A stretch of DNA of 64,000 nucleotides from Macrocystis pyrifera (Eukaryota; Sar; Phaeophyceae; Laminariales; Laminariaceae): contig JASSKH010000020.1 of assembly GCA_031763025.1 (NCBI GenBank), positions 7,876,667 through 7,940,666 of the forward strand, in the 5' to 3' direction. Below the pieces are notes generated by a model. The model saw only the letters and a program-made list of their open reading frames with translations. It was not told where the DNA came from and ran no database searches. The first letter of the stretch is position 1; every line of letters begins with the position of its first letter. The position numbers and the translations under genes were made by a program. Shown one piece after another: positions 1,037-64,000 of the stretch.

Positions 1037-1192
1037 GACCTCAAACGTTCAAGAACACTAGTGTGTTCGTAGAGTCCAAGCCTAGATGCCCTGACCACCA
1101 CGTGGTCTGATGAGTTGCTTTATAGTCGTTGTATTAGAGGACAGATGAGGGGAGAGAGAGCGGAGCCTAGCTCGTAGCTCGGAGCAGAGAAC
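1037..1192 (-). mobile_element. possible short LTR interrupting LINE copy 1
   Basis: This 156-bp stretch lies between the putative primer site and the point (about 1193) where LINE copy 1 loses similarity to copies 2 and 3, about 14 codons before the LINE stop. It holds a TATA box on the minus strand (ACTATAAAG, around 1119-1127) and short inverted motifs. This is the layout expected if an LTR element had inserted into the LINE end. Canonical TG...CA ends are not visible, and the other LTR and the target duplication lie outside the window. Confidence 0.32.
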
Positions 1193-1193
1193 G

Positions 1194-3201
1194 GTCCACT
1201 GCAGTTTCCCTTCTACTCCTGTTCACCCCCCTCTCCGCATTCCCTTGGTCGGATTTTCTGCTACTCCTCTTGTTGCCCCTCCTCCCCCCATTCCCTTGGA
1301 CACCACCCACGGCGGATGCGCGGCGCGGCCTACTGAGCTCAGCCTCAGTCTCGTGCCACCTCACCATGAACCGTTCGGCTACTTCCAGGATCCCCCGGTA
1401 CCACTTCCCCGCCTTTTTTGCAGCAGTGGGCCACAGCGCGGTCTCAACTCCAAACGCCAAGGGAGCAAGTTCCGTTGACCCTTCGGTGGCTCGGAACTCC
1501 CTATGGTCTTCGACTGTGCATCTATGCCTAGTCTTAACCTGTCCGCCAGGTCTCGGGCTCTCCGCATCAGCCATCGTCCCGAACATTACCCGACTGGGTA
1601 ATCGATCCTTGCTTTGCCGTGCCAACCCCCCCGCGAAGGAGAGACGCCGTTTGCGGATGGTCGTTTCGATGCTCTTGTAACGTGTCATCTTGAGGGCCTT
1701 CGCGTACGAGAGGGTGGTATGGTCGGTACGAAGTCGGCGCTGGAAGCCAATGACTCGCAACAGGACTTGGTGAGCCGTTCGAAGCTTGGCAAAGTGTTCC
1801 GCTCTGAGGGTCCACGTCACACACCCGTACAGCAGGGTCTCAATCACCTCGGCCTTCAGCATTCGGACTTTCAGGCTAAGGGGGGCGGTCGTCGTATCAT
1901 ACAGCTCCGGGCCGACCCGTTTGAAGCATGCTCGCATGAGACGGATCCGTCGGTCGATTTCGAGCGAGAGGCCAGCGGTTTCGTGGATAATGCCGCCTAG
2001 GTATAAGAACTGGGCCGTCTGCTTATACCTCCGGCCTGCTGCTTCGATGACGAGCGGTGGTGCGAGGGTTTTCTGGTTTGGTTTTTGTAGAAGCATAGTA
2101 TGTGTCTTCGTTTCCGACACCGTAAGGCCTGCTGCTTCGAAGACAGTCACGATGACTGTCATCATTTTCGCGAGCACTTCAGCCGACTTCGAGACAATCC
2201 CTGCGTCATCGGCGTACAACATGTCCCATACAGCCCTTCGAACGCACGCCAACGGCTCCTGCTCCTCCGTTCGGACTACTCCAGCATCACAGAGTTGGAC
2301 CAAATCCCTTACGATGGCTTCGTCATGGCTAAATCGTACTAGTACGACGTGCAACGCAGCAGCGAAGAATACGTTGAACAGTAACGGTGATAGCACACAG
2401 TCTTGCCGCAGCCCCTGCGTGACATCAAACCATTCCGAGTGCTCGCCATCATCCGTACGCACGCGACCTGCATGACATCGTGGAATTTACGGATAATTCT
2501 CAGGATCTTGGTTGGTACGCCAAAACGTGTGAGTACTTCCCATAGCAGCTCTCGGTCGACAGAGTCGTACGCTTTCTGCAGATCGGTGAAGCACAAGTAC
2601 AGGGGCTTTCTGCAGATCGGTGAAACACAAGTACAGGGGGATGTTCCTCTGTCTTCCAAGCTCTTGCAACCGGCGCACGACGAACAACATATCAATCGTT
2701 GATCGTGCTGGGCGGAAGCCGCACTGTTCCTCCGGGAGTAATTCCGCAGTAGTTGCTGAGGCGGGACGCGACGATTTTCGACAAAACTTTGCCTGCGTGG
2801 GCAACAAGCGAAATTCCTCTGTAGGTGTTGCAATCAGTTCGGTCCTTCTTTTTGTGAAGGACCTTGATGATCGCATCTTTCCATTGCTGGGGGACTTCTC
2901 CTGTTACCCAAACATTGACAAGGATGTTGTGAAAGCACTGGGCGAATGCGGGGTGGTCGATTTTCAGGACTTCGGTCGGGAGACCATCTGGCCCGACAGC
3001 TTTCCAAGTTGACATCCCCTTAAGGGCCTCCGTCATCCCGTTCATGGATGGTTCACCTCCGAGCGACAGTTTGAGCGGTTGTGGTGGCAAGAGGTCGATG
3101 ATCGTGGGATCGAATTTTAGCGATTTCGTGTTGAAAAGTTTGTGATAACCCCCCCCCCCACCGTTCACGAATTCGCACCTTATCCCGCAACAGCGTGCCA
3201 T
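1194..3201 (-). pseudogene. LINE reverse transcriptase and C-terminal region, frameshifted
   Basis: Segment 3201-2692 has the RT entry motifs [17 protein letters not shown] and YRGISLV. Segment 2833-2339 has motif A, CFTDLQKAYDSVDR. Segment 2462-1194 has motif B, GLRQDCVLSPLLFN, and the catalytic YADDAGIVS. After the RT come LYGCVTWTLRAEH and RTAHQVLLRVIGFQRR, a post-RT region shared with copies 2 and 4, and a basic tail. The enzyme would copy element RNA at the nicked target. A 34-bp tandem duplication at 2571-2638 in motif A shifts the frame, as do other indels. Confidence 0.9.
2571..2638. repeat. 34-bp tandem duplication inside LINE RT motif A
   Basis: GCTTTCTGCAGATCGGTGAA occurs at 2571 and again at 2605, with the rest of the 34-bp unit also repeated at one mismatch. 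The unit is not a multiple of three, so it duplicates the FTDLQKA codons and throws the RT out of frame. A duplication this similar is probably recent. Confidence 0.93.
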
Positions 3202-3460
3202 CCTCTTCCTTAATGAACTGTTCGCTTCTCGCTTTTGTCCCTTCCAATCCTGCCGTACTCTTAAGGTGCTTGTAAAAGCCTCTCTGGTCGTTATTCGCTA
3301 GGAGTCGTTCGGTTTCAGCAAGGTACGCTTCGAAGTACGCATGCAGTCTTGCGGTAATCACCTTCTGCAGGTTCGCAAACGCAGATATCAGTGTCTTCCA
3401 CGCGGTTCTATCCCGGGGGTGGGCACGCAAGAATTGCCGTGCATCTCTCTCGCTGTCCAT
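3053..3460 (-). pseudogene. LINE linker between endonuclease and RT
   Basis: This is an open stretch on the minus strand rich in charged helix-formers ([18 protein letters not shown], then [18 protein letters not shown]), typical of the linker before a LINE reverse transcriptase. Near 3150 a run of ten C on the plus strand coincides with a frame change into the next RT segment, so homopolymer slippage is the likely lesion. Confidence 0.7.
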
Positions 3461-3461
3461 G

Positions 3462-4618
3462 CTAATATGAATGCGGCCAAGGTTTCGGCAGACTCACACC
3501 ATCCATGCCTGCGGTGGCGACATGGAGGTGGTGGTACCTCTTTTTCGATCGCTTCAATAATAGACGCAGTGAAAAACACAACCCCATGCCCGACGTATTA
3601 AGGGGCTGGTTAAGCTGGTTGAGAGTGGAGATGACCCTCGCGACTACTCGTTCACGACACTTTTCATCGGACATAAAAAGCTGCCTGTCGAACTCTCGGC
3701 GTTTTGTCGGTCTACGTATTAGTCTGTTGGACGCAAAGTGACCACTGAGTCGGACTTTGATATACAAGATGTTGTGGTCTGAGTCAGCCTTAGCTGGGGC
3801 AGGAGCCTGTGGGACGACTTCAACATCTTGTACTCTAGGTCGATGAGTTTGATGGGATAGGATGTAGTCGATCCGCTTCCAGTCATTTGGGCTGGTGCCG
3901 TTGCGTGTATGCGAAATCCTACCCTTGCGCGTGCTGAAAAACGTGCTGGTGAGAGCTAACTTGAAATTGGTGGCGAACGACAGCAGTCGTCCGCCATTAT
4001 CGTTACGGACATCACGCCCATATGCTCCAGACACTCTACTTTCATCATCACCACACCCTTCCATCCTCTGTCCAGTGCGCGCGTTTGCATCATTCAGTAC
4101 AAACAGACACTCTTTCGTCGGGATCTCTTCCACCAAGTCCTCCAGCTTCTGCCATAAACTACGTTTCGGTTCAACGTCCTTGGTACAACCAGTTGGAGCA
4201 TACGCAACGACGAAAATAACTGCCTCGCATTTGCTAGCCAGCTCAAAGCGCATAGACATAAGCCCCTCGTCAATGAACTGATGAGTGTACACAGCCTTGC
4301 TGCACAACGATTCCTTTACAGCTAGACCTACTCCGTGCAGCCCTTGCCTGGCAGCTGTTGTTTCCTGACCTGAACAGAAAGCGCGATACCCATGCTGCCG
4401 GCCCTCCATGTTTCCTGCAGGCCAATGAAGTCACAGCCGAGTTGCCGTCCCTTCGCCAGTACATTCTCGTCATGTCCGTACCCGTTCTTCCCCTTTACAG
4501 CCAGGGTGCGCACATTGTAGGTCGCTACCGCCACCAGTGTCTCCTTCTGTCTCTTACGAGCTTCACGTGCTGCTTCCTTTGCCAGCCGACGTGAGGCTCG
4601 TTCCCGCCTCCTTTTCAT
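3462..4618 (-). pseudogene. LINE AP-endonuclease domain, frameshifted
   Basis: This domain nicks target DNA for target-primed reverse transcription. The frame starting at 4618 has a basic N-terminus, then ATYNVRTL (the Asn motif) and IGLQETW (the catalytic Glu). The frame then shifts between about 4400 and 4330. The second frame carries VVAYAPTG, NDANARTGQR (the catalytic Asp-Asn loop), KRIDYILSHQ and ADSDHNILY (the terminal Asp-His). All hallmark residues of the exonuclease-endonuclease-phosphatase fold used by LINEs are visible, split over two frames. Confidence 0.88.
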
Positions 4619-39743: not shown

Positions 39744-40043
39744 CTCAAACATCAGGTTGTCCCTACCCCAAAGTGAGTCTTTTTTTGGCTCTATCTTGCG
39801 AAAACAAAGCAAACAAAGCCACAAAGTGGTACCAGCGGGTGGGCGAACGGTGAGGGGGAGAAGACGCAGTGAGTGGTCGATTCGCGGTAAATTTCCTGAT
39901 CGTACGGGCCGGCAGATACGGAATCGTCGCGCACCGTCAATCGTTTGGCATTTGCGGTGGGTTCTCGGTACCAGCTAGCCGTTAGAAACGGAACCACCCG
40001 GAAACAGGGTGGTCGACTTGTGGTCGTCATAGTTTCCCGATCG
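39744..40043. other. gene-free flank of LINE copy 2
   Basis: This stretch upstream of the LINE truncation point shows no motif. The open frame continuing into the LINE reads non-LINE sequence here. Confidence 0.5.
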
Positions 40044-40684
40044 CGAACGGCTCACCACCAAGTCCTGTTGCGAGTCATTGGCTTCCAACGCCGACTTCGT
40101 ACTGACCATGCCACCCTCTCGTACGCGAAGGCCCTCAAGATGACACGTTGCGAGAGCATCGAAACGACCATCCGCAAACGGCGTCTCTCCTTCGCGGGGG
40201 GGGTGGCACGGCAAAGCAAGGATCGATTACCTAGCCGGGTGATGTTCGGGACGATTGCTGGTGGGGAGAACCCGAGACCTGGCGGACAGGTTAAGACTTG
40301 GCATAGATGCGTAGTCGAAGACCTTAGAGAGTTCCGCGCCACCGAAGGGTCAACGGAACTTGCTCCCTTGGTGTTTGGAGTTGAGACCGCACTGTGGCCC
40401 ACTGCTGCAAAAAAGGCGGGGAAGTGGTACCGGGGATCCTGGAAGCAGCCGAACGGTTCATGGTGAGGTGGCACGAGGCTGAGGCTGAGCTGAGCAGGCA
40501 GCGCCGCGCATCCGCCGTGGGTGGTGTCCAAGGGAATGTGGGGAGGAGGGGCAACAAGAGGAGTAGCAGAAAACCCGACCAAGGGAATGCGGAGAGGGGG
40601 GGGAAGAGGAGTAGCAGGGAAACTGCAGTGGACGAAAGTAGGAAGGAGATGGCAGATAGGGTAGCCAGGTACCGGGCAGACTAA
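40044..40684 (+). pseudogene. C-terminal LINE ORF fragment
   Basis: Encodes VLLRVIGFQRRLRTDHATLS, then IETTIRKRRLSFAGG and WPTAAKKAGKWYRG before the 1-nt frameshift at about 40433. The other frame resumes LEAAERFMVRWHEAEAELSR and ends SRKEMADRVARYRAD. The basic tail (RGNKRSSRK) would bind nucleic acid. No endonuclease or catalytic RT residues are present. Confidence 0.85.
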
Positions 40685-49050: not shown

Positions 49051-50699
49051 CTCTTCAATCCATACAAGTCCTGTGGTCCCAAAACTATCCACGTACAACA
49101 AAATAAATGCAAAATGAAAAAACAAAAAAACGACGATAAACAATAATTATTGTATGTGTTGACTGATCAACGCCGAAGCTCATGCTGCAACATTGTCGGA
49201 TGGCAAGCCTAATAATAATATGATCATAAGTGTACGAGAAAGTAATCGCGCTATCTCTACATAGTTTAATGTGAAGAACACACACACACATACTATCATT
49301 TTTAGTACCAGGTGGAAGTTATACGTATGTACGCCGTACCACACAATACATCACCCTATTGATAGCACCGCGTATTGTGTTTGCCGCGGGATAACATTCA
49401 TAAGTTGTTCGTTAGGGGCAATCCTTTGAAAGACAAAAGTATTTATTAATAGTGTCTATGGATACCGATGTCACTGGTATCCATCGTCCATACTCAATAT
49501 TCTTGAAACCAATACATACTATAATACATACGTGATGACGAAAGGTATATTGATGTAAAGGGTCAACAAGCTGGAAAAAGACGGAGAGGCTCGACCGTAT
49601 TATTCCTGCATCTATCTGCTGGGAATTGATAGAGCGTGTGGTAAGTGAAGAAGGGGCCCGACTTTGGAACTTTTCCCGCTTTCGGTGTCGACAGACGTCA
49701 CCAAAAGTTCCCCTTTAACCCGGAAGAATCACGCCTGCCGAAAGACTCAGTGTGGTGCATCCTCGTCTTGTCCCGCCTCTCCCCATCGCCCCATTCGGCC
49801 ACTTGCAAGCAGACCTTCTTCCGTCATCAATCTTTTCGCGAGGTGAGTGCAGCAGACAGAGCAATCCCACCTTTGAGGTTGTGCATTGTTTCTTGAACTC
49901 CCATCACGAGGAGCTCTACATCTCACCTGAGACGTAGCTTCGGAGAAATTTAATGGCGTAACCACCAGCATTTCTATGAAAGAGGTGTAAAACCAGCTGT
50001 CGTGGGAAATCAAGTCTACCAGTAAAGGTATGATAACTAAACGGGTAGTTGCTCAACCGGTCTGAACTATCAATAGTCGCGCCAAAAAGGGCTACCTCTA
50101 CGTGTCCATCCTGGAATAGCTCAGGTACAGCTCCAGAAACATCAGCAGCAGCAGTGCTGTGCGCTGTGCACATGATAGCGGATTTCCCACGAGGCGCACC
50201 CTTTCCTACAGCGTTCGGCGATTTCTATACCCCTTGCAGTTCTTGCTCGTGGCGCGCACGCATATAGTAAGGCCAAAAGGTTTTCACTGCTTGACAAGTC
50301 CAAGTCTTCCGGGGTTTTTTTTGCGACTGGCGTGCCGACACCATTGTCATATATACTGCTATTAATAGTTTTGCGCCCAATTTTTCACAGCGGGGGGTGG
50401 GAACATAGGATACTGAGGCCTATGTACAGCAGTACATTAAGCATGCGATACGCACTGCTTGCTGCTACTACTGCGCTCACCTTGATATATATATATATAT
50501 ATTGTGGTTTCTTAAAATACTTGTGAGCGACGAGTGGTGTCCTTTTCCTGCTGTACACGCGCGCGAGTAGTGTTTGTCCGTCTTTGTTCGGCAGCGAGCG
50601 GGGGTGATGCCCCTGTCACGCTGGAGTAAAAAGGCGCAACGGCTACTATTACTACCATGTATGCCACTACTATTAATATGTATACCACGGCTTCTACTA
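49051..50699. other. gene-poor stretch
   Basis: A coding-like phrase, KKGPDFGTFPAFGVDRRHQK, at 49645-49830 ends at a GTGAGT donor (49841) and could be an orphan exon; no partner exon is seen. 49890-50010 shares a diverged repeat with 59300-59400 (CACGAGGAGCTCTACATCTC; CATTTCTATG). A (TA)n tract lies at 50484-50502. No confident gene. Confidence 0.35.
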
Positions 50700-50805
50700 T
50701 TTACGGGGGATCATAGCAAGTAGGACCTAAGGTACACACAAGAACCTATTAATTTACCTATTTATAGTAACAACATTTGGTCCTATTTACTATGATCCCC
50801 CGTGA
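50700..50805 (+). mobile_element. MITE member (A to B)
   Basis: TTTACGGGGGATCATAGCAA with CCTAAGGTACACACAAGAAC; right end AACAACATTTGGTCC...CCCCCGTGA flanked by TA. Slightly diverged. Confidence 0.88.
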
Positions 50806-51068
50806 TACACCCATTACTAATACGAGAGTTAATTCCTCTACTGCTGCTACTACATGTACTGCTACAACTACTACTGAACGCAAGGGTCGGCAGTCGATTG
50901 CAGCCCGTGGAACAGGACACAAGACACTGATTTGTTCGTACTCCCCAAACGATGCTATCAAGATAAACAACACGTGAAGACGACCAAGTATATATACCTG
51001 GTATATTACAGCAGCACTCGTACGAGTGGACGAATGGTGTTCATATACATTTCTATAGCAGTACCATG

Positions 51069-51173
51069 TTACTGTGGACCTTAGTAAATAGGACATACGG
51101 TGCGCACAAAAACCTCTTGTTTCCTTTTCTTCATGTACAATATTTGGTCCTATTTGCTTGTGGGTATGCAGAT
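51069..51173 (+). mobile_element. MITE member, degenerate
   Basis: TTACTGTGGACCTTAGTAAA with GGACATACGGTGCGCACAAA and right block ACAATATTTGGTCCTATTTG. The right terminus is eroded. Confidence 0.72.
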
Positions 51174-53513
51174 GTGACGACCTAATATAATCAAGCACAT
51201 CGGGGTGCCGTCTCGACCACCGGCCTCTGCCTGTGCAGCAGTGAAGCCGGCTTGCAGCCCAATACTGCTGCTATTGGTAACTCTTACCGAAAAAAAAAAA
51301 TCGCATAGAAGCAGTCGATGGGCGGCGAGGATGCAACCGAGTACAGCTGCTCTCTCTATATAATAATGTACTAACTATTGGAACCCCGGCGATGCACTGA
51401 CAACGACCCCGTGACTAATGAATACCTGGTCACATTTTTACGTTAAGAACATGATGTACTCTTAACAAGTACATACTCCCGTCTTGCATCGGGGCATAGG
51501 ATTTTGAACTTCCATCACTAAACGAAGAAGTTTAGCCGCTTATTTTGACGTTGTTTCTTCTCCACTTCCAAAATACAGTGTTGCTGCTCGTTCTGCTGTC
51601 TGTTGGTGCTTCGCGTCGTGCGGCAAGTCGTGGTCCGCAGTTTCGAAAAGGTAAACGAGCTGCTGTACCTAGTACTTCCTGTTGAGTAGTAGCCCGCAGT
51701 CCCGTTGCTGCAGGACACAGCGTTGCCGATATGTACATTCATGTACACGCCCGACGTAAAATATACCAAGTCAACCAGTAGTATATGCACCAGGTACTCG
51801 TTATATAGTAGGTTGAGCCGTGCCGTTTGCATGAAACCCGCGAGCAAGCGGATTAGCCGAGACTACCTCGCGTGTTTTGCATTTTCGAGCACGCATCTAT
51901 TAATAACACATACACGTATTCGTTCGTATCGCACACATGTATATACGCGTCTGCTTGCTTGTTCGGGGTATATAAACACGGGTCCAAAATGAACCCACGC
52001 CCTTTCAACCCTGGACGTACGCTTGACTAGTGTTTGCGTTTTCAGACGGCAAATATTCGATGTGTCCGGGAAAGTCCGAAAAATGAAAGTCGCGTCGTGT
52101 ATGGAATAATCTTAGGTAGTTGCCATGCGTCAGGCGTATCATGTAAATGACCTCCTGTAACCCGGAAGGCTAATCATGGAAATCATTAGTAGTTGTCATG
52201 TTGGTTGCCCAAGCCAAGCAGATGGTATGGCATTGCTTGATCTTCCCTGCTTGCTGCATACCTGTTCATTAATAGTGTACCCGTATCTATTTGGCGTAGT
52301 TTTGTGGCCGCAGAGCTTACACCGGTTAGGATCGAAGAGTAGGAATGGAAAATGGATTTGACGAGTATATAGAAAAAACGTTTTAGTGAAGACCACGTAC
52401 ATCTGTTGACTTAACATTAGAACCTTTTCAGTACTGGAGTCCCGTTTTTAAGTGAACAAACTACTTGAAATTGGACTGTATTGTCCCCAAAACGGGACTG
52501 CAGTTTTAAAAGGGTTATAGGGTCTTACCTAATATGCGTGAACACATATTATTCAACATTGATCCGATGTGTGGCAAGCCAAGAGCCCCAGGATTAAATG
52601 ATCGGCACGGACACTGGTTGTGCAGGATGTGGGATGTCCAGGTGTATGTAGAAAAGAACGGTCAACACAACCTGTCAAGCACAGCAGCAGATATGATACC
52701 GTAAACCTTTTCCCCACGTGAGTCTTAACATTTTCGAAAGAAGGGTTGACACCTTGATAAACTCCGTCCTACTGCTGCTAGGTGCGGTGTACGTACAGTA
52801 CAAAAACGATCGACAGCAGTAGTAGCCGTGATTGAATATGATTTACTTGATGACAGGATACTTTCCATACTTCCCATAATTTAATTAAGAGTAACGCCAA
52901 AGGGTGTCAAAAGAACCTTTGCCTGATCGGGTCGATTCTGGAGGTCCTCGTAGTCAGCTTGAGAGGAAAAGCCAACGCGGTCCATTCTGCGGACCTCCAA
53001 CAACCCGGTATCTAGTCTGGTGGGATCTTTCATGTTTGACTTTTGAGAGGTATCCTTTCTTGCATGTGTGTTACGAGGTCTACGACCGGTACGTACGCCT
53101 CCGTGACAACAGTATGATATATGTATTTCGGTGATCCAAACGATCCGTATCTGGGGTGCTGGCCTGTGTGCCTCCACGATGGTACCTGTTACCCTGGTAT
53201 TATTGTCTATGCTATACTTGAATAAAGTCAAAATATGCCCATTTTTGAGATTTTTATGGGGACATATTTAGAGACTTTGTTTGACACTTTCTTTCCGCTG
53301 GGAACGCCGAAATGTCAATTGTTTTTAGTGTAGGTTCACTATTATACCGGTTTTAGTATGGGTGACGCGACATGGATGAGCAGAGAGGGGGCCCTACTGG
53401 TATTTTGGTTTGCCCCCCAAGCCTGACTACTTTTTTTGTTAGCCGCTAGCCAATGCAGCGTTGAGGTATTGCCCCATGTATGGCTGATGCGGTGCCCCAT
53501 CATTATTAGCACG
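51174..53513. other. gene-poor stretch with LINE-tail traces
   Basis: 52195-52395 resembles the LINE 3' UTR (ATGGCATTGC; TTGGCGTAGTTTTGTGGCCG; GTTTTAGTGAAGACC) in plus orientation. 52585-52660 repeats the GATCGGCACGGACACTGGTT end motif. Both are fragments. Nothing else recognised. Confidence 0.45.
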
Positions 53514-53755
53514 GCAGTATGTACCCGGAAATGAAACGGAAACACAAAACACTATGCCAGGGTTGAACCACGACACAGCGGTGCGATATTACCACGCAGT
53601 TTGTACCCGGAAATGAAACGGAAAACACAAAACACTATGCCAGGGTTGGAACACGACACAACGGTGCGATATTACCACGCAGTATGTACCCGGAAATGAA
53701 ACGGAAAACACAAAACACTATGCCAGGGTTGAAACACGACACAGCGGTGCGATAC
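53514..53755. repeat. 83-bp tandem repeat, three units
   Basis: Units start at 53514, 53596 and 53679 with GCAGT(A/T)TGTACCCGGAAA and contain AACACTATGCCAGGGTTG. They differ by a few bases and 1-nt length. The last unit stops at GCGATAC (53755). The array lies about 160 bp upstream of the secreted-protein start codon and so within its probable promoter region. Confidence 0.93.
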
Positions 53756-53918
53756 GAGCATCGCACGAGATAGATGGTGCGTATGTGTATACGTAACGGT
53801 ATTTTTGTTTTGCTCAGACCTCTCTTGGTACAAAACCAAGCTCAAACGGTGCTGTGTGTTGCTTCTCGTGTGTTTCCTCCTGCACAACGACCGACCAGGC
53901 AAGGCAATCGGTAACCAA

Positions 53919-53980
53919 ATGGCTCCCACTATGTTCACCGTCGTCTTCTTGGCCGCTCTCGCCGTCGCGGGCGCCTCCAG
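53919..53980 (+). other. signal peptide coding segment
   Basis: Residues 1-20 have a short N-region, a hydrophobic core ([13 protein letters not shown]) and small residues AGASS at the likely cleavage site. This directs entry into the secretory pathway and supports the start codon choice. Confidence 0.8.
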
Positions 53981-56714
53981 CGTATCCTCTTCCGAAGGTT
54001 TGTTTCGTACATTTTACCGGGTGTGCGGCGGCAACAATGACAGTACGGTAGTAGTAGTGGTCTCTTACTTGTGCGATGCTGCCACACTCAAGTGTTACCC
54101 ACCTGTGCAAAGTAGTTCACGAGCACTGAAGCTGGCAACCGGCACGATTGAGGGACAACTCCGTATGGCGGTGGTACCCACGCACCGAATGACTTTTAAG
54201 CCAAGTAGTGTAGTAGTAACTCGAAAGTAGTCGATAAAACAGGTTCGCTCGCTATGATGCCATGCGGTATCGGTATCGGATCATTCAAGGTTCTGATCGG
54301 TACGGGGATTATGGGTTTCGGGTATAGATTTCAAAGTCCTCGAGATAGGGCGGGCGTACGTACGTACGCCACGTAATCGGTGTGGGCAGGTAAGCACAAT
54401 ACTTGTTGAGTTTTCGCAACAAACGGATCAAATGCTGTACTGGTTAACACCGTGGGCAGGCGCAACTTGACGCTAGTCGATAAGGGAAAGGAAATGCCAA
54501 GTTTGAAGCAACGATAAAGGCACGGTGCTGGTCGTAGTAAGTGGGAGCAGGAGAGCCTGTGGTCTGACCCCGGATTTGAGCTCCCCTTGTAATAAGGACA
54601 GAAACAAACGGAGGGAATCAATAAATGCGCTTGAAAAATGATCCGAAATCAGTACCATGTGCTGTACATGAAACGTAAGCATACCTTCTAAATCTGGAGT
54701 TTCTCCCCCCCTAAACATGGAGATGATGGGTATCCTTGTTCGCACAGCAGTTCTTTTTTTTGGTACATGTTTGTAGTTTTTCGAGTTATTTCCGCCATGT
54801 ACTATGTGCACATTCGCATATTTCCTTACGCGTGGCGTCCGAGAGATGCAAAATCTATCCCGCAATTGTGTTCAACGAAACCCCGTCGTATTGCGATTGA
54901 TTCGGTGCTTTTTCCCGACGTCGAACAGAGGTACGTGGAATGGCAGAGCAAGCCCTCCGCGGGGGACGCAAGCTTCAGGTACGATTGTTACGCATGGCCA
55001 TGCATAACAGCTAGTACACCCCCCACCCCCCCCATCAATAGTGTGATGGTTGCTCACCTAGCCTCTCATGTTTTTGCTCGTGCCGCAGTTTCTACCGTGT
55101 TTCTCTAAACCAGCGTTTGAGTGAAGAATGCTACTGAGGCATTCTACCATAGAGGAATCACATTGAACGAAAAAAAACTGAGCCACCCCGGCGTCCATTT
55201 CTGGGCGCCTAGTCCTCACTTTTTGGCATAATGAAGACGTGCACGAATGAGATGCGTGTCGACCAATCTACGGTTTACAACTTTCCTGCTGGATTGATCA
55301 TCAATCGATGGATGTTATTATTATTGTATTGCAGGTAGCGCTAAACCGTTACTTCTTGGCGTGTGTTCCTCGACACCTTTACCTCAACTTTCCCTGAACG
55401 CCTTGTTTTCATTCTTGCGTTCCGACCAGGCGCAGCCGTTGGTCTGCAGCACCGTCCAGTGCCCCGAACGCTCCACCCTGATCGAAACCGCTAGCACCAC
55501 CGAGTGCGGAGACATCTGCGACCCGTCCTTGTGCTGCGAGGCCAGATGCTCCTTTCACGAGTGCCCCGTCCGTACCACGCCCGTGGTTGACGCCGACCTG
55601 ATTGTCTGCGCCGATCTGACGTGCACGGACGACATGTGCTGCGAGGCTCTCTGCTCGTACTTCCAGTGCCCCGACGGCGAGGTTCCGGTGGTGGACGCCG
55701 ACGACATTGCGTGCCCCGGCCTTGAATGCAATGCCGCGATGTGCTGCGAAGAACGTAAGTCTTGACAATTTTCACAACAATTCTGCCTTTGTCGTTCAAA
55801 ATATGGTACAAAAAAAGTAGATAAAAGGATGTTAGCATACTTATTCTTTAGCTGTTGAAACTTTATTGCAGATTTCAGTACCTAAACGTGCTCAATATAT
55901 TAGAGTTCTTTTTGCAGAAATAACTAGAATTTTAAACCATCTTTTAGCTGTAGGTTGTCATGCAATGGATGTAGGAGCAATGACACCTTTTTTGTGGTCA
56001 TTTGAGGAGAGAGAAAAATTAATGGAATTTTATGAAAGAGTTAGTGGTGCACGTACAATTCTGCCTTTGTCGTTCACGCGCCCCCCACCCGCCACCCCTC
56101 CTCCTTTACCCCATCCAGCTGATGCCTTCGTCTCCCTACTCTGCCTGCACCCTGGCCCTTGCGCTTTTCTGAATGAACTGAAATGTTTAGCCTTTTGTCA
56201 TCTAACATTACGGCGCCTCCTCTCTCTCGCGATGCGCAGCGACGAACACCACCACGAACCCCGTCGACGTCACCGCCTCCCCAACCCCCTGCCCCCGTCT
56301 GAGGTTTTCCAACAACGGTAAGTGTTGTATATGTTCCGCTTAACCCGGAGCATGACACTTGCACTGTATGCCCGCTAAATGTAGCGTGCATGGAATTAGT
56401 CGTATCTCGAGGCGCTAACCACTTGTATTTTTTGTCACCACGAAGCATCGGACGGTAGTGCGGATCTTGACAACATTGTGTCTGTCGCGCCTGGCTTGAG
56501 CCCCATTTACAGCCGCACAGCGATCACCCGTGTAAAGGATGAGATGATCGACCACTCTTGGGCAAATCGGATGAAAATAGAGGTGAATATAATCAATCTG
56601 GTGTACCCCCTCTCTACTGGAAAACTCGTCAGTTACGAAGCCGCATGCATGAGTTACGGTTCGTTCACCTGGGACCATGCATACGTGAATTTTTTTTGGT
56701 CATTAGTGCTGTGA
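53919..56714 (+). CDS. secreted cysteine-rich repeat protein, multi-exon (3' end uncertain)
   Basis: Exon 1 (53919-53997) starts ACCAAATGG and encodes a classical signal peptide ([20 protein letters not shown]), ending in phase 1. Exon 2 (55335-55754) carries three modules of pattern C-x4-C-x14-C-x3/4-C-x4-CC-E. Examples are [18 protein letters not shown] and [18 protein letters not shown], each ending in MCCE or LCCE. Exon 3 (56240-56317) is a Thr/Pro linker ([18 protein letters not shown]). Exon 4 starts at 56446 and is open to 56714, though its true end is unclear. All junctions are GT/AG and phase 1, so modules can be shuffled. The protein should be secreted with disulfide-bonded repeats; its function is unknown. 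An alternative acceptor at 55430 has a better pyrimidine tract but the wrong phase. The second intron holds a nad7 NUMT. Confidence 0.68.
55777..56076. repeat. 22-bp direct repeat flanking the NUMT
   Basis: The two copies at 55777-55798 and 56055-56076 are identical and contain TTCTGCCTTTGTCGTTCA. Outside them the sequence is ordinary intron; between them lies AT-rich organellar-type DNA. Confidence 0.95.
55838..56054 (+). pseudogene. nad7: mitochondrial nad7 fragment (NUMT) in an intron
   Basis: From about 55838 the plus strand encodes [20 protein letters not shown], then [37 protein letters not shown] and FYERVSGAR. This is an internal piece of the 49-kDa (Nad7/NuoD/NDUFS2) subunit of respiratory complex I. 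Codons end almost always in A or T, unlike the GC-rich exons around it, as expected of mitochondrial DNA. There is no start or stop, and the fragment stops right after GAR where Nad7 normally continues. About 40 AT-rich bases of unknown origin precede it. The frame is still intact, which suggests a recent insertion. Confidence 0.9.
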
Positions 56715-59700
56715 ACATTCGTTATCGTTCAAAAGTGCAAAACTTTGCGGGTGGGTGACGTAATCACAAGTATCACGGGCATTATTTATGCCAACATTGT
56801 TCCGAGACTCCAGGGGGCCTGGTAGTTGAGTTTCGGCTCTGCCCACAGGAGAGGCGAATCAAACAACAAACTGCTAATAATAAACGTACTGAGGGAATTC
56901 GAACACAAATCGAGGGAATTCGATCTCGCAGACAACGATAATGCAAAACGCCATGCAACTACCTCTCTTTCGCCCCGGCACATTTGTTATACATGCTATC
57001 CACGCCCCTCCCGTGATTGTTTCCCCATGAAATCGAAACGCGTACCGCAGGAGTGGTCGATGCGACGTCTGGAGCTGGCGTTCACAACCCTTCTCATGCT
57101 AGGACACGGAAGGTCCAAACCATTACTGGCGGGTGGTCACAGTACAATCACCGGCGACGAGACGGACGAGCTCCGATTTTTTTCAAAACTTCGTCGCGTC
57201 GGCGAATGCGAATGGAGAGTACTATATACCAATAAAATATAAAGAGGGCAAGCAAGCGTCGTATAGAAACGGAGATAGCGTGCCAAGGGCTTCTAACCCA
57301 GTTCAGCACTTCGCGCTTGATGGCAAGTGGCAAGAAATTACAATTCGTCTACGAAGACCAAACCATCCCGTGGTCTGGCGCAGACGTTCGTTCGATTATT
57401 GTGCTTGTTGTGGGGCGGAAGCAGGGTGCTCCGCACGCGACTCCTGTAATACGGCACCCTCCGTAGGAGTGACGTTGGGGATTAGGCAAAGGTCGAGACG
57501 CAGAGCTGACCCGCGTAGTTTTCATTTATTTTAGTGCAAGCCAAATATGTGGCTTTTCCTCGCATTCGAGGTTTAGGCCTGAATGTCTCAACGAGTTGGT
57601 TCTTGGGAACGAGTGCACGATAGTGAATGCCGTACGTGGCCGATATATTTTGCGGCACTGGTAAGGATCTGGAACAGCATAAGAAACACATGCTTCGGGC
57701 ACAACTAAAATTACTTCATTACGATTTGTCCGTCGGATCGCGTTAGTCCCGTCGTATATTGGATTGTGTCGAGATTTGGATGGATGCACAGTTATGTGTG
57801 AAAGGGTTATAGTCACGGTCCGTCGGGATAAAATAGGGTAAGGATTTAATGAAGATTTCATTACTTCTCTGACTCACCTGTCGGGAGAAACAAGAGTGCC
57901 AAGAGTTTCATAGATACGTCATATCTCTGCAAGGTTTTGTGATGATACAATACAGGGGAGTGGCGAAACAGGACTTCGCTTATTATGTGGTAATGTCACG
58001 AGGTAATGCTGCTTTACCTGGAAACAAATAGTCTTTGACGAAGCGCAGGGTCCATGGGTGCATCCTTTATCTGGCACGGTCTCCCAAGTGACGTGCCTTT
58101 CTGCAACTGTACGTGGGGCATGGGATGAGAATACTCAGGGTTTGTAGGAAATTCAATATTTTGTGCGAAAAGTACTCTGGGGAAAAGTCCTGTTCCCTGA
58201 GTTTTGTCATGCCGTGGTCAGCCAGGTCTTCAAAGAGTGTTAAGAACGCTTGCAGTACTGTTCCTCTGATAAAACATTAGTAAGCTACTTTGTTATGTTT
58301 GACGGATGGCGTGATTCATACGAAAGAACTTCTAAATCGCATAATGGTCACTTGATACTTCGAAAAAACAATCGAAAAGCACCTAACTTTTGTTTCACGT
58401 TGAAGGTTGGTACACAGTACATACAACGCGCCAACAAGGGAGGGCGACGGCGCAGGCTCTATCGTGCACCCGTCGAACATCCTCTCGTTTTGGCGGTGAC
58501 GATGGTTCGTTAAGTACCCAAAGAAAAGCAGCTCACGGGTGACAAATACATACATAAGTGGTATGCGGCGAGAATTAGATAATTTTCAGAGGAAGCAAGT
58601 ACGCGGCGGGAACTCCTGTCATCGATACGACGCACCAGGTACCACGAATTGATGATGAATGAACTTTTGTGACCTAGGACTCTGCACGCAGGTATTACAC
58701 TCCCAAGCCGCCATCCGCTGGTTGTGAACAACAAACTGAACGCATTTTCAATACACCAGCGTTTGCTCCGCGACAATCTTGCGTTAGGATAATCGATCAT
58801 GGTTCTTGTTTATGTACGAGTGAGAATACAGCTCAGCGAATTGTCCAAGCATCCTCCCATCCTGTACTTTTCTACATGCAATTTGTTCTCGTCGCCCCAA
58901 ACGTATTTATACACGTGCGATATTATACGCTGCTGCTACCAGTATACTTCACGGTTATATACATCTGCACGCAGTCGCTTCAAGCTGCTGTCTTCTGGAT
59001 GCAAACAGACGGCACGTGGCTCCAGCACGTAAGACTCTTGGTCCGACCGTAAGCACGAAATTGGTCCTGGGAGACTTGAATGAAGATGAGCATGGCCCTA
59101 GTGTCTGCGACCAAGTTTTTTTCAAGTAGAACATTCCGGCGCATGGAGATGCATAAACGATACCAGTCGTACAGTGGACGTCGAACTTTATCTTGCGAAA
59201 AGTAGGCTTAGCTCGGCACGAACAATGAGAAAATAGGGTATAGAAACTCAACTCGACTGTGGGATCACCTCTTAAGAGCCATCTTACGGTAGGGGTGCAC
59301 CAGAAGTTCCTGAGCCCCTCACATTAGGAGCTCAATATCTCACCCGATATGCTTGGAAGAAATTTGTTCGCGCCACCTGACAGGCATTTCTATGCGCTAG
59401 TCCTAAAACGAATACACGAGTAAAATTTTCATCCTAACCGCTGGTTCCTCATTTAGGGAACTCAATCGGTCGGAAACCTTTGGCCCAGAAAGTGCAACCC
59501 CTACCGCGGGGTGACTCCTTAATCCTACACAATAGAGTTAGATCAGGGTCGGAAAAAACAGAGACATGGAGCTTATTTGATAGTAGATCAGGGTCGGAAA
59601 AAAAACGAGACATCGAGCTTATTTGATAGTATACTGTTGTATAGGCTATACCGATTTTTAGGCAGATTGCCCGATAACAAATGGGGCACTGTCACGTGCT

Positions 59701-59977
59701 GCTGACGGGCGTAGATAAAGATGTATCACGCTGACTCGCGCCGAACATAGCAGAAGTGACAGCAGCCAAGCCAGTGTCGCCGAGGTTATAGTCTAGGGTC
59801 GTTTCGTATGTCGTGTTGTGTGGGTGTGTGATACTCGTACGAGTATGCGGCGGGACATTCTAGCATTTCCGATGCATGAATCCGACTGGCGAGTTGGATC
59901 GAAAATCTCAGTTTTTTCGACTGTCTGATCCAGTTGGAAATCGTACTCGAAAAACCTTGTACTGAAAAGGCGCTTTT
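56715..59977. other. gene-poor stretch with a coding-like patch
   Basis: 57040-57466 contains exon-like phrases in changing frames: VVDATSGAGVHNPSHARTRK after the acceptor ACCGCAG (57049), NFVASANANGEYYIPIKYKE, and KLQFVYEDQTIPWSGADVRS (57320-57466, 48 codons to TAG). The family is not recognised. A 45-bp tandem duplication starts at 59540 and 59585 (AGATCAGGGTCGGAAAAAA). The diverged repeat shared with 49890 lies at 59300-59400. Nothing else is supported. Confidence 0.4.
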
Positions 59978-60480
59978 TCAATCAACTGTCAAAGATTTAC
60001 CATTTTTTGTCCGGTCCGATAGGAAACCGGCTTTGTCAATCCATGTTTCCGACTGCATAAGAAGTGGCCTGAGGACGTGACAAGCCGGGTCCGGAGCGAT
60101 GACGTCATCGAGGTAGGCGGCCACTATGGCTAGGCCTTTGACAATCTCGTTGATAACATTGACGAACCATCCAGGTGCTGCACTGCTCCCTTGTGGCATG
60201 ACAAGCCACTCGAAGAGGCGTAGGGGCGTGCAGAACGCAGTGAAGGGGGGCGTGTCATTGCGTATCGTGATTTGATGACACGAAGAGACCAAGTCAGACG
60301 GGGAGAAAATGCGGCCACGACGGGTATGGGGAGCTTTCCAAGGATGCTGATGTTATTCTACTTCTTCAAACTGGTAGTGAGACGAACCTCACCAGATTTC
60401 TCGAGTATGGGGACCAAAGGGCTCGCGAATGGCGAGGTGGGGTGTTGTACGAAGCCAGCCGTGAGGTAAAATAGCGTCCA
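59978..60480 (-). pseudogene. Gypsy-type reverse transcriptase, partial
   Basis: FASPLVPILEKSGEVRLTTS and ISILGKLPIPVV correspond to the 'SP...V.KKDG..R' and 'YPIP' segments, with an in-frame TAG between them. After a frame change, DLVSSCHQITIRND, TAFCTPLRLFEWLVMPQGSS and IVAAYLDDVIAPDP follow. These are motif A (DL..), the 'MP.G' motif and the catalytic Y-L-D-D. Similarity fades after HVLRPLL, so the thumb, RNase H and integrase are absent. Confidence 0.85.
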
Positions 60481-60499
60481 TTTGTTTGGCCATGATGGG

Positions 60500-61380
60500 A
60501 TTCACGCGACGGGAGCGAGAGGTCACTGGTGGACTCGAAATCTCGAACGGCAGGCGGAGACACGAGCCAAAGTCGGCAGGTGACGTGGAAAAGACATGGG
60601 TGGACACGGTGAGGGTATTTCTTAGCTGGGTTATGATGTGGGGGTCCCAGCCTGGGCCATGGAAATCGAACGAGATTTATTTGAGATGCACCGGCAGTTT
60701 GTGACATACTTGCAGGAAACTGACGCGCTGGTCGCTCCAATAAGGAGGGCTGCGGCTCACGGTCATTCGGGGGGGGCTGGCAGGGTTGGGCCCGCTACTA
60801 GGGGGTGTTTCATTGAGGAGATGAACAAAGCGGTCCGAGCAGGTCGGACGGGCGGAGAGACCGGCCGAGAGGGGGGGCAACAGGACCCGGGACGACCATT
60901 GAAGGCTCGTCGGAGGAGTCCAGGTGCGGGTCGAGGCACTGTCGTCTTGGTGCAAAACCGATGCGACAGGCACACGAAGCAGCGGACAGGAAGAGGTATC
61001 CGGGCTACAATTCCGCAGTGCCAGCAAACGGTATCTGTTGGAAGTCATTTTCAACGAGGTGTTCGTCGACGGAAAAATTGTCGGAACCTCTCAGCATCTC
61101 CACGAAGTAGCAGCCGGCCAAAGCTGGTGACCCGTTGCTGCGAACCAGAGAAACTTGGACGAGCTGGCGGTCACGCGAGAGTGATACACCTCGGTCTCTG
61201 GCGTAATGCAGGTGATAACCACCCGTTGGAGCCGAAAACTCAGAGACGAAGGCCACGGCGCCAGGCGGGTTTTGGTGGGATAAGGCGAGTTCACCTAAAC
61301 ACGGGGCTATCGCCTGGACGCTGGGGCAAGGTGCGGTAGGAGCGCTCGCTCAAACGCATCCAACTGTCACGGACGAGGAG
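60500..61380 (-). pseudogene. Pol connection between protease and RT
   Basis: Minus-strand segments such as SLVRSNGSPALAGCYFVEML and DEHLVENDFQQIPFAGTAEL lie between PR and RT, as the spacer does in Gypsy Pol. There is no independent motif. Overlapping plus-strand frames at 60638-61339 are shadows. Confidence 0.35.
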
Positions 61381-61389
61381 GACGTCGTG

Positions 61390-61700
61390 CTACATGGCCT
61401 CGGAGGGGACTATGTATCCCCATACCGCGAGCGACGCAATAGGTTCATCCTCATGCAAGAAATGTATGCTCAAGCGGACTGTGGTAGAGGTCTGCAAACG
61501 GGGGGGGGCGTTCCGAGGCCGCCCTATTGATAGGATAATGGAGGGGTTTCCGTCTCGCAGATTGTCGAGGCCGCGCCAGATCGCACAATGTGCTCCCAGG
61601 CTTTGAGAGTTAGGAATGACTGTGGGAAGCCTGTATCCGAAAGGGCGATACATCCAAATTTAGAGTACGCGTGGCCGCCGTGGAGCTTGACCTTCGTCGT
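61390..61700 (-). pseudogene. retropepsin-like aspartic protease
   Basis: GCIALSDTGFPQSFLTLKAW holds the D-T-G active site (about 61637-61629), preceded by KVKLHGGHAYSKF. After a frame change the next segment, LQTSTTVRLSIHFLHEDEP and SLAVWGYIVP, continues the beta-rich fold. It would cleave the polyprotein. The position directly after NADAR and before RT is the normal PR position in Gypsy Pol. Confidence 0.72.
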
Positions 61701-62029
61701 AAACGAAGAGTGGTCCATAGGAGCAATACCAGGGACGAGGCACGGTCCCCGTTCAGTGAGGGGTTGGATGCTTGGGGGGGTCCCATCTGCCCTGGGGGTC
61801 ACCGAGACGATGTGGCCACCGTGGTCCGATGGCACGTTCGGCACGAGGGTCGAATATCCAGAGGAAGCAGTGGTCGTATCACGGGTCGAAAGACGCTGTT
61901 GAGAGAAGGGGTCTACATCAAAAAGCAGTATTCGGCCCTTCGTGAGCGAGTCACTTCGTGGCGGAGAAGTATAGTGGTGGCGCACCGGTGATGGGGCGCC
62001 GTCGCGAAGGTGCTGGCGTACAATCTGCA

Positions 62030-62500
62030 AGGCATTTCGTAACAGGTTGGGGACGCACCATGCAGGGAGGCGCTGGGCGTTTCCGTGGTCCGCTCGGTAG
62101 CCTATCCCCTAGATGGTATCGTAAGGGCTGGCTTCTGCAAGCAGCCGGTCGCCGGTGTCCAGAAGGTGCCGTCACATGGTTGGATTTTGTGCAAACTTGG
62201 CGTAGGAGCCGACGAGCAAAATATTTCCCCGTTCGTTCCCACACGGTAGCATCAAAACTTCGTACCTCGCGTCCGTACTGTTTGTGCGGCTTTGGGTCGG
62301 ACACACGCATTATTGTTTGAAGCGCGAGGTGGTCACCGAAGAGGTGACTTTTTCTGTGGCGAAAACCTGTTCCGCGCACAAATAGGAAGTACCGTCTATG
62401 GTGAACCTGAAAGAGGTCCATCGCGAAAAGCAAGAGGGAAGTTGCCAGAAAAAATTATCTGTGAGGGTGCAATATTCCTGGGCTGCATCAAACGCGTGGC
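62030..62500 (-). pseudogene. NADAR (YbiA/DUF1768) domain within the retrotransposon polyprotein
   Basis: Three minus-strand frames join into one domain. The first carries QEYCTLTDNFFWQLPSCF and FRFTIDGTSYLCAEQVFATEK. After a shift near 62350 the next reads HLFGDHLALQTIMRVSDP and GREVRSFDATVWER. After a shift near 62225 the third reads NILLVGSYAKFAQNPTM, then DTGDRLLAEASPYDTI and GIGYRADH. NADAR proteins share LSNF, DG-x-x-Y-x-x-x-E-x-x-x-x-x-x-K, G-R-x-V-x-x-F-x-x-x-W, KF-x-Q-N and EASP-x-D-x-x-WGIG, all recognisable here. Two expected Trp codons are now stops (TGA at 62174-62172, TAG at 62111-62109). Some bacterial and eukaryotic NADAR enzymes remove ADP-ribose from guanine; others act in NAD or riboflavin metabolism. 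The role in this element is unknown. Confidence 0.8.
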
Positions 62501-62519
62501 TGATAGGCGCGGCCTGAGC

Positions 62520-64000
62520 CGGTGGAGAGCGTGGTTTTACTCCTGCCGTGTAACTGGAGAGGTCGTTTTTCGTAAACTGTGCCCGACGAGCGACTTGTCC
62601 CTCCAGGGTCCTAATCTGAGAGCTCGAGGTGGGGGCGCATTTACCTAGGTGGGTCGTTACTGTGGCTCCCGAATGTGTATGGGGAGCGACAGGGGGCTGC
62701 TGACCGACCTTCCTTGACGCGGTCAGCGAGTCTTCCGCCGCCTGTGCGGAGGGCGATTCAAGTGGGTCCACTAAAAAAGGTGGTGTCAACACTTTCGAGG
62801 GGACGGGTGGGATCTGTTCTCTCAGATTCCCTCGCCGCGCCCCGTCCGGAACCAAGGTGTCGCATCTATGCGCCAAGAGTGTATCTGCGTTTGAACCTTG
62901 TGGGGGAAATACGTCCCCTACCGTCTCGCTGGCCGCCGACGGTGAGCCAAGGGCCGGGAAAAACCCTCTGCCGTACGCTGATTGGAAGGGGCATCAAAAT
63001 GAGCAAAATCCAGACTTTCTTCGTCAATGGTGCAGAGCGGAGGGTCTCGACCGGTCTTGCTTGCAGACGCAAAGCAGAGCGCCGATAGGGAACTCTAGCG
63101 TCGGGGACTCCTGTACCCACAACTCAAAGCGACCTTCTCATCTGGGGATCAATATCCTGATGTGCTGGAAGTCTGTGGTGGAGTAGTGGGAGACGCAGGC
63201 GAACGACTGTACTAGTGTCGTTTAAGCGAGGGAGGGCAGCGTGGTACGCGCCCCGATCCCGTAGTTTAATCCCTTGGGGGGGGGATAACGTTGTGGGATG
63301 ATGTGTTCCGTCTACGTGATGGGGGGTAGAGTCGTGTGCGCCCTTACCGTGCGGTGAAGTCCCTGTGGGGATGTACTCATTGTCATGCATGGCCGTAGTC
63401 TTATGACCATAGACCCTCGCATCCCTACAATGCCGGGACGGAGCACGTCTGATTCTCACCGACCGGGCAGACATTGCTTGCACCAAGCGCGAAGCGCAAC
63501 GTGAGGTGTTGGGCAAATCGCATGAAGGGTGAGCTGCATGCTACTAAGATCCGCTTTAGAGGTGGATATTCTCGCATATGGATGACAGCATCAATTAATT
63601 GATGTAATTTTTGGTGTGGCCACTCCCTGGGACATCAATGGGTTCACCATGTAACTGCCTCGTGGGTGCCTCTGTCGGGGGTGGGGGGGTGGTGATGCGT
63701 TGAGTGCTCTGCCGTCTACCCTAGGGAGGGGCGCGTCTTGCTTGCCCTTACCCTGCTTCCAAACACGAATAGATTGCGGCAGAACTCGTTCGTTCAAAAA
63801 GGTTCGTGGTTTGCCTCCCAAACGTGCTACAGGCGGAACTGGGAGGTGGGAGGCACCACCCTTGGACGGTGAGCTGGAGCGAAAAAACCCTGGCTGGAGT
63901 GCATTGGGGTTTCCATTGTTCGAGACGCCGTGGCGCACGACAGGGGTCCCACCGGCCGAGGCGGGGGCCGGAGGTGTTCCATTGGTTGGTTGGTACACTG
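62520..64000 (-). pseudogene. Gag-like region of the Gypsy element
   Basis: Minus-strand frames at 63998-63591, 63516-63124 and 62876-62520 are rich in Pro, Arg, Ser and Thr. At about 63450-63410 HCRDARVYGHKTTAMHD keeps the Cys, Gly-His spacing of a CCHC zinc knuckle with the second and last Cys replaced. I infer a decayed nucleocapsid. The frames do not overlap cleanly, so this is a low-resolution call. Confidence 0.35.

Follow-up and report, generated by a model that had tools for sequence, protein, structure and literature searches.

Is a NADAR domain that stands directly in front of a protease motif and a reverse transcriptase (RT) a part of the retroelement in which it lies or a stray gene that landed there, and of what use would it be to such an element? 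The question is raised by a stretch of 64,000 nucleotides from the brown alga Macrocystis pyrifera (assembly GCA_031763025.1, contig JASSKH010000020.1, positions 7,876,667 to 7,940,666 of the forward strand), hereafter called the window. According to the open-frame listing and Pfam matches, what is left of a retroelement polyprotein lies on the minus strand from 59978 to 62993. This is very probably a degraded and truncated long terminal repeat (LTR) retrotransposon of the Ty3/Gypsy type, whose Pol starts with a NADAR domain of the YbiA family and continues with a linker, an aspartic protease and the RT; our confidence here concerns the identity of the element and not the role of its NADAR. 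The fusion of NADAR with a Gypsy element is real but already known from Ectocarpus (PMC12477816).

Architecture of the Element

As shown in Table 1, the pieces follow each other in transcription order from an upstream frame without a recognized domain, which probably represents the last part of gag or the first of Pol, through NADAR, the linker and the putative protease, identified by its motifs, to the RT fragment. Within the 194-codon frame, the D codon of the ALSDTG motif occupies 61635–61637, and DTG lies about 120 codons past the end of NADAR. We take DTG and the downstream HDVLLVRDSW to be retropepsin-like motifs, from which the putative protease is named. The RT fragment is 124 amino acids long; the DTG motif and then RVT_1 with YLDD, on one strand, stand in the order seen in Ty3/Gypsy elements, an order that is not specific to Gypsy. 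The copy carries stops and frameshifts; it is dead and does nothing now.

Table 1. Features of the NADAR-bearing retroelement in the window.
Feature	Position	Strand	Evidence
Upstream open frame	62454..62993	-	Open-frame listing; Pfam matches below cut-off only (NapB, E=0.016; SKIP_SNW, E=0.14)
NADAR domain (PF08719, YbiA family), interrupted by stops and frameshifts	62004..62453	-	Pfam
Glu codon, counterpart of E43 in the Phytophthora nicotianae NADAR	62370..62372	-	Mapping through P0004–8bau
Lys codon, counterpart of K50 in the P. nicotianae NADAR	62349..62351	-	Mapping through P0004–8bau
Glu codon, counterpart of E125 in the P. nicotianae NADAR (YbiA marker)	62133..62135	-	Mapping through P0004–8bau
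Single open frame of 194 codons: C-terminal end of NADAR, linker and DTG motif	61524..62108	-	Open-frame listing
Putative aspartic (retropepsin-like) protease, two frames	61360..61637	-	DTG at start; HDVLLVRDSW (61360–61389) near end
Reverse transcriptase fragment	59978..60352	-	RVT_1 PF00078, E=2.8e-7; YLDD at 60104–60115

The whole NADAR profile (PF08719, positions 1–163 of 163; curated Pfam score 35.1 bits) is matched in a single minus frame with stops read as X and no frameshift joined (E=1.5e-16, 61.5 bits). Taken piece by piece, the matches keep the order of the profile, with positions 1–49 at E=0.2, which is weak alone, 46–89 at E=3.2e-6 and 103–163 at E=3.6e-10, the last of which scores 40.8 bits and so exceeds the curated score. 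A second minus frame matches NADAR at 44–89 (E=1.7e-4) and the third matches RVT_1 (E=1.1e-5); since the middle of NADAR is thus in a different frame from the rest, there must be at least two frame changes within the domain, in addition to the stops. In the three plus-strand frames at E<=0.1, neither NADAR nor RT was found, the only match being a chance one to KIF1B (E=0.079), so base composition does not explain the NADAR match. Among solved structures, a profile search matched two NADAR proteins, 8bau (E=3.6e-15) and 2b3w; it also reached streptavidin at E=3.7e-4 and beta-lactamases at an E of about 0.5, both of which were taken as chance. The NADAR family was reportedly named by de Souza and Aravind. 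An earlier first-pass annotation of the window, made from the sequence alone, had placed a NADAR on the same strand 5' of the DTG protease and the YLDD RT, and the full-profile match bears this out, with the boundaries moved from 62030–62500 to those of Table 1.

The NADAR–Protease Join in Related Sequences

With 64 residues of the 194-codon frame as the query of a protein search, 12 relatives (P0001–P0012, from ENA contigs no longer than 8.5 kb) were recognized among 16 candidates. All 12 contain PF08719, and their identity ranges from 56 to 83% in the matched part, a spread which suggests that NADAR is a long-standing part of the element. P0006 aligns with the window frame without a gap from the C-terminal end of NADAR through the linker into the protease region, with 119 of 193 residues identical (62%). 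Similarly, 44 of 62 residues are identical in P0003, where NADAR also runs into the linker, and judged by eye a similar linker follows NADAR in seven of the 12 relatives (P0002 to P0008). As for the others, P0001, P0011 and P0012 end or leave the frame after NADAR, P0010 leaves the frame, and the tail of P0009 is of another kind.

It might be proposed that a stand-alone NADAR gene or pseudogene was inserted into, or landed beside, an old Gypsy copy. Such free-standing NADARs are indeed the usual kind, for at each of the 49 loci from bacteria and viral contigs where a related NADAR is matched the domain lies in an open reading frame of 152–278 amino acids, and the protease and RT pieces of the window find no match (E<=0.01) in the flanks of these loci (2.5 and 4 kb at most). 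Against this, NADAR and DTG are joined in one open frame in the window, the identical join recurs without a gap in P0006 on another contig, P0003 and others run into the same linker, and the fusion has been published for a whole lineage (PMC12477816). Because the same join of NADAR, linker and protease region is found in P0006, the junction exists more than once and cannot be put down to a chance insertion, unless P0006 stems from the same insertion at one locus; a landed gene is therefore highly improbable. The first-pass annotation had further inferred that NADAR was captured by a lineage of Gypsy elements, and a NADAR in this position within such a lineage is supported by P0006 and by the Ectocarpus lineage of which all families are reported to carry NADAR (PMC12477816). 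The opposite picture, a NADAR absent from every other Gypsy copy and a separate pseudogene inserted at the boundary, is contradicted by the gapless P0006 alignment and by that published lineage. Beyond the published observation, the present analysis contributes one decayed copy together with its 12 relatives.

Further searches started from other parts of the element. The protease-bearing frame gave 71 stretches among genome contigs and the RT fragment gave seven among viral contigs, with no relative in either set. P0006 matched 18 loci in viral contigs, mostly contigs already found in an earlier NADAR scan, and the matches are confined to residues 1–93, the NADAR part. P0004 matched 672 phage records, all below 60% identity, and the best 15 of the 672 match within residues 1–153. 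The viral contig L001 was rejected as a relative, as only 13 residues matched and NADAR did not. No second copy of the element was found in the 64-kb window, where tblastn matches reached only E>=0.094, and a 72-base match at 49909–49978 was rejected as a copy because it matches sequence outside the element.

Assignment to Ty3/Gypsy

Several results weigh against reading the element as a Ty3/Gypsy retrotransposon with a protease behind its NADAR. No protease family of Pfam was matched in the element frames, and residues 211–213 of P0006 are DKG in place of the DTG of the window, which probably makes P0006 another dead copy. Pol-length protein relatives were found among neither 265 nor 992 candidates, and no intact copy was seen. 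RNase H followed by integrase after the RT is what separates Gypsy from Copia; the three minus frames of 50100–59999 matched no Pfam family at all, and neither RNase H nor integrase was found in 59700–64000. The copy ends after the RT, and no integrase precedes the RT either. In addition, 58000–64000 contains no LTR-like direct-repeat pair, the window itself ending at 64000. As RNase H, integrase and LTRs were not found, the element is called Gypsy from its domain order, the small part of an RT that it retains and the lineage already described, rather than from an RT tree or an integrase. Directly past the end of the element lies a tandem array of 46-bp units (59539–59631).

Active-Site Residues

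The residues E43, K50 and E125 have been described for the NADAR of Phytophthora nicotianae (PMC11543638). It has been reported in the same work that K95 and D171, the counterparts of K50 and E125 in the E. coli C7 enzyme, are required for hydrolysis, while for E88, the counterpart of E43, a change to Ala has a minor effect in vitro and a change to Gln inactivates; all three residues are required in cells. A Glu at the position of E125 marks the YbiA subfamily, with Asp in BC4488 and His in phage NADARs (PMC11543638, PMC11125620). P0004 matches 8bau, the P. nicotianae structure, at E=3.1e-14, and the residues were mapped through this alignment with the chain numbering shifted by two, which places E43, K50 and E125 at E29, K36 and E109 of P0004. 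All three are retained in the window copy, in which the equivalent of W133 is a stop. The E125 equivalent is Glu in 12 of 12 relatives, the search query itself having contained it, and the E43 and K50 sites, covered in frame by two of the 12 (P0004 and P0011), are kept in both. Since the catalytic residues are kept, an enzymatic role is open to testing, and hydrolase activity of NADAR in live members of the lineage appears somewhat favored.

A different view would be that NADAR now gives Pol structure or a ligand-binding site, for ADP (adenosine diphosphate)-ribose sensing or nucleic-acid binding, and is an enzyme no longer. Captured domains can lose catalysis, and some contacts to ADP-ribose have changed: the equivalents of Y84 and D86 are F and A in P0004, and that of R79 is C in P0004 and R in the window. 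However, the active-site E, K and E persist in the window copy and in P0004, and the Glu of the E125 position persists in every relative with the caveat given above, so that loss of the enzyme seems unlikely.

Possible Function in Live Members

The activity shown for several NADARs is the removal of ADP-ribose from guanine (PMC11543638, PMC11125620). Because this known reaction acts on guanine, protection or clean-up of nucleic acid is the direct guess for an element-borne NADAR. In live members, translation of Pol would begin with NADAR, which the protease would then cut free or which would enter the particle together with Pol; there it could hydrolyze ADP-ribose off guanine of the element RNA or complementary DNA (cDNA), or off particle proteins, by which a host modification would be undone or an RNA intermediate processed. 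The first-pass annotation had likewise offered, as conjectures, protection of the nucleic acid or polyprotein of the element from host ADP-ribosylation, or a change in NAD use. A role in protecting nucleic acid can be put forward tentatively at best, and the narrower proposal, that inside the particle the Pol-borne NADAR acts as an enzyme and frees the guanines of element RNA or cDNA from ADP-ribose attached by the host, is more doubtful still. If true, it would reveal an undescribed defense of the host against retroelements by ADP-ribosylation of nucleic acid.

NADAR might instead serve the life cycle of the element rather than its defense, through processing of the RNA intermediate. This was suggested by the authors who described the Ectocarpus lineage (PMC12477816), by analogy with NADARs in polyproteins of RNA viruses (PMC9503650); by contrast, the activity in the available parts of the two enzymatic reports is hydrolysis of guanine-linked ADP-ribose, with no RNA-processing reaction there (PMC11543638, PMC11125620). 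RNA processing is a possible but rather doubtful role. A third possibility is a metabolic N-glycosidase which, like the riboflavin-intermediate enzyme, would act on small nucleotides and not on nucleic acid. The NCBIfam family TIGR02464, whose name is riboflavin-intermediate N-glycosidase, was matched by all six sequences tested and speaks for such an activity; four of the six reached its curated score (P0004 at E=4e-36, P0006, P0009 and P0011), while P0007 and the window piece remained below it. But TIGR02464 spans the whole YbiA family and a family name is no test, and an N-glycosidase would leave unexplained why a retroelement should have the domain; this activity is quite improbable.

Origin of the NADAR Domain

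The related NADARs outside the element were found at eight loci in prokaryote genomes and 41 in viral contigs, with identities of 32–47%. In a tree of 53 rows, 10 element rows including the window piece lie on one side of a branch (100/99), separate from 41 bacterial and viral-contig NADARs, and the window piece groups with P0003 (95/92); bootstrap values in this tree are unsettled, the window row fills 37% of the columns, YbiA (2b3w) sits on a very long branch, and just one row, 8bau, is known to come from another eukaryote. Element NADARs are thus one clade among the sampled rows, as the first-pass annotation had thought a tree might reveal, and with these limits of tree and sampling the donor is not shown. 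It has been reported from a blastp search that relatives of NADAR outside Ectocarpus are almost only bacterial (PMC12477816), with which a bacterial or phage-like source agrees. The ancestor of the lineage may have captured such a bacterial- or phage-like NADAR once.

P0009 (161 amino acids, on an ENA contig) is more distant, with 38% identity to P0004; it is the first branch in the element clade and, with its different tail, is perhaps a second family or no part of an element at all.

Comparison with Known Systems

In a report of 2025, one Gypsy lineage of Ectocarpus was described in which every family has a NADAR in Pol, for example Gypsy-12_Ec32 (PMC12477816); it is the only relevant report of NADAR with Gypsy elements that searches of the open-licence PMC literature brought up. 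As the fusion is thereby published, the novelty implied by the first-pass annotation fails; the fusion itself is a genuine instance of a NADAR taken up by a mobile element. Likened by description and not by sequence, the window copy shares with Gypsy-12_Ec32 a NADAR ahead of the linker and protease motif, but it is a broken copy without RNase H, integrase or the C-terminal chromodomain, its 3' half being missing.

Other systems share single aspects. The ORF1 of the Tx1 element of Crassostrea gigas likewise puts a YbiA-family NADAR in a retrotransposon, but Tx1 is a long interspersed nuclear element and not an LTR element, and it was called divergent (PMC12477816). The P. nicotianae NADAR (8bau) belongs to the YbiA subfamily and has E43, K50 and E125 in common with the window copy, whereas it is described as unlinked to DarT, and the available part of the text ties it to no element (PMC11543638). 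Polyproteins of positive-strand RNA viruses similarly embed NADAR with a polymerase, but theirs is an RNA-dependent RNA polymerase and no reverse transcription is involved (PMC9503650).

Other Features of the Window

The guanine plus cytosine (GC) content of the window is mostly near 50%, and CTG-rich repeats are present. Further tandem arrays consist of 72-bp units at 1–270 and 83-bp units at 53504–53754. An AT-rich insert at 55799–56054 (about 32% GC over 55800–56060) encodes a portion of nad7/NDUFS2 (E=6.2e-35 for the best match among PDB sequences; Complex1_49kDa E=3.2e-8) and lies between exact 22-bp direct repeats at 55777–55798 and 56055–56076; it looks like mitochondrial DNA that moved into the nucleus. 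Together with the GC content and the CTG-rich repeats, this mitochondrial-type piece within other DNA is no more than compatible with a brown alga. Remains of a non-LTR retrotransposon occupy the minus strand at 1167–4430, with an RT (PF00078, E=1.4e-9) and an endonuclease-like match just below the cut-off (PF03372, E=7.5e-5), and the plus strand at 39900–40466 seems similar to them by eye, with no Pfam match. The open frame at 55298–55765 consists of repeated Cys-rich units with no Pfam match and is perhaps an exon of a gene for a secreted or wall protein.
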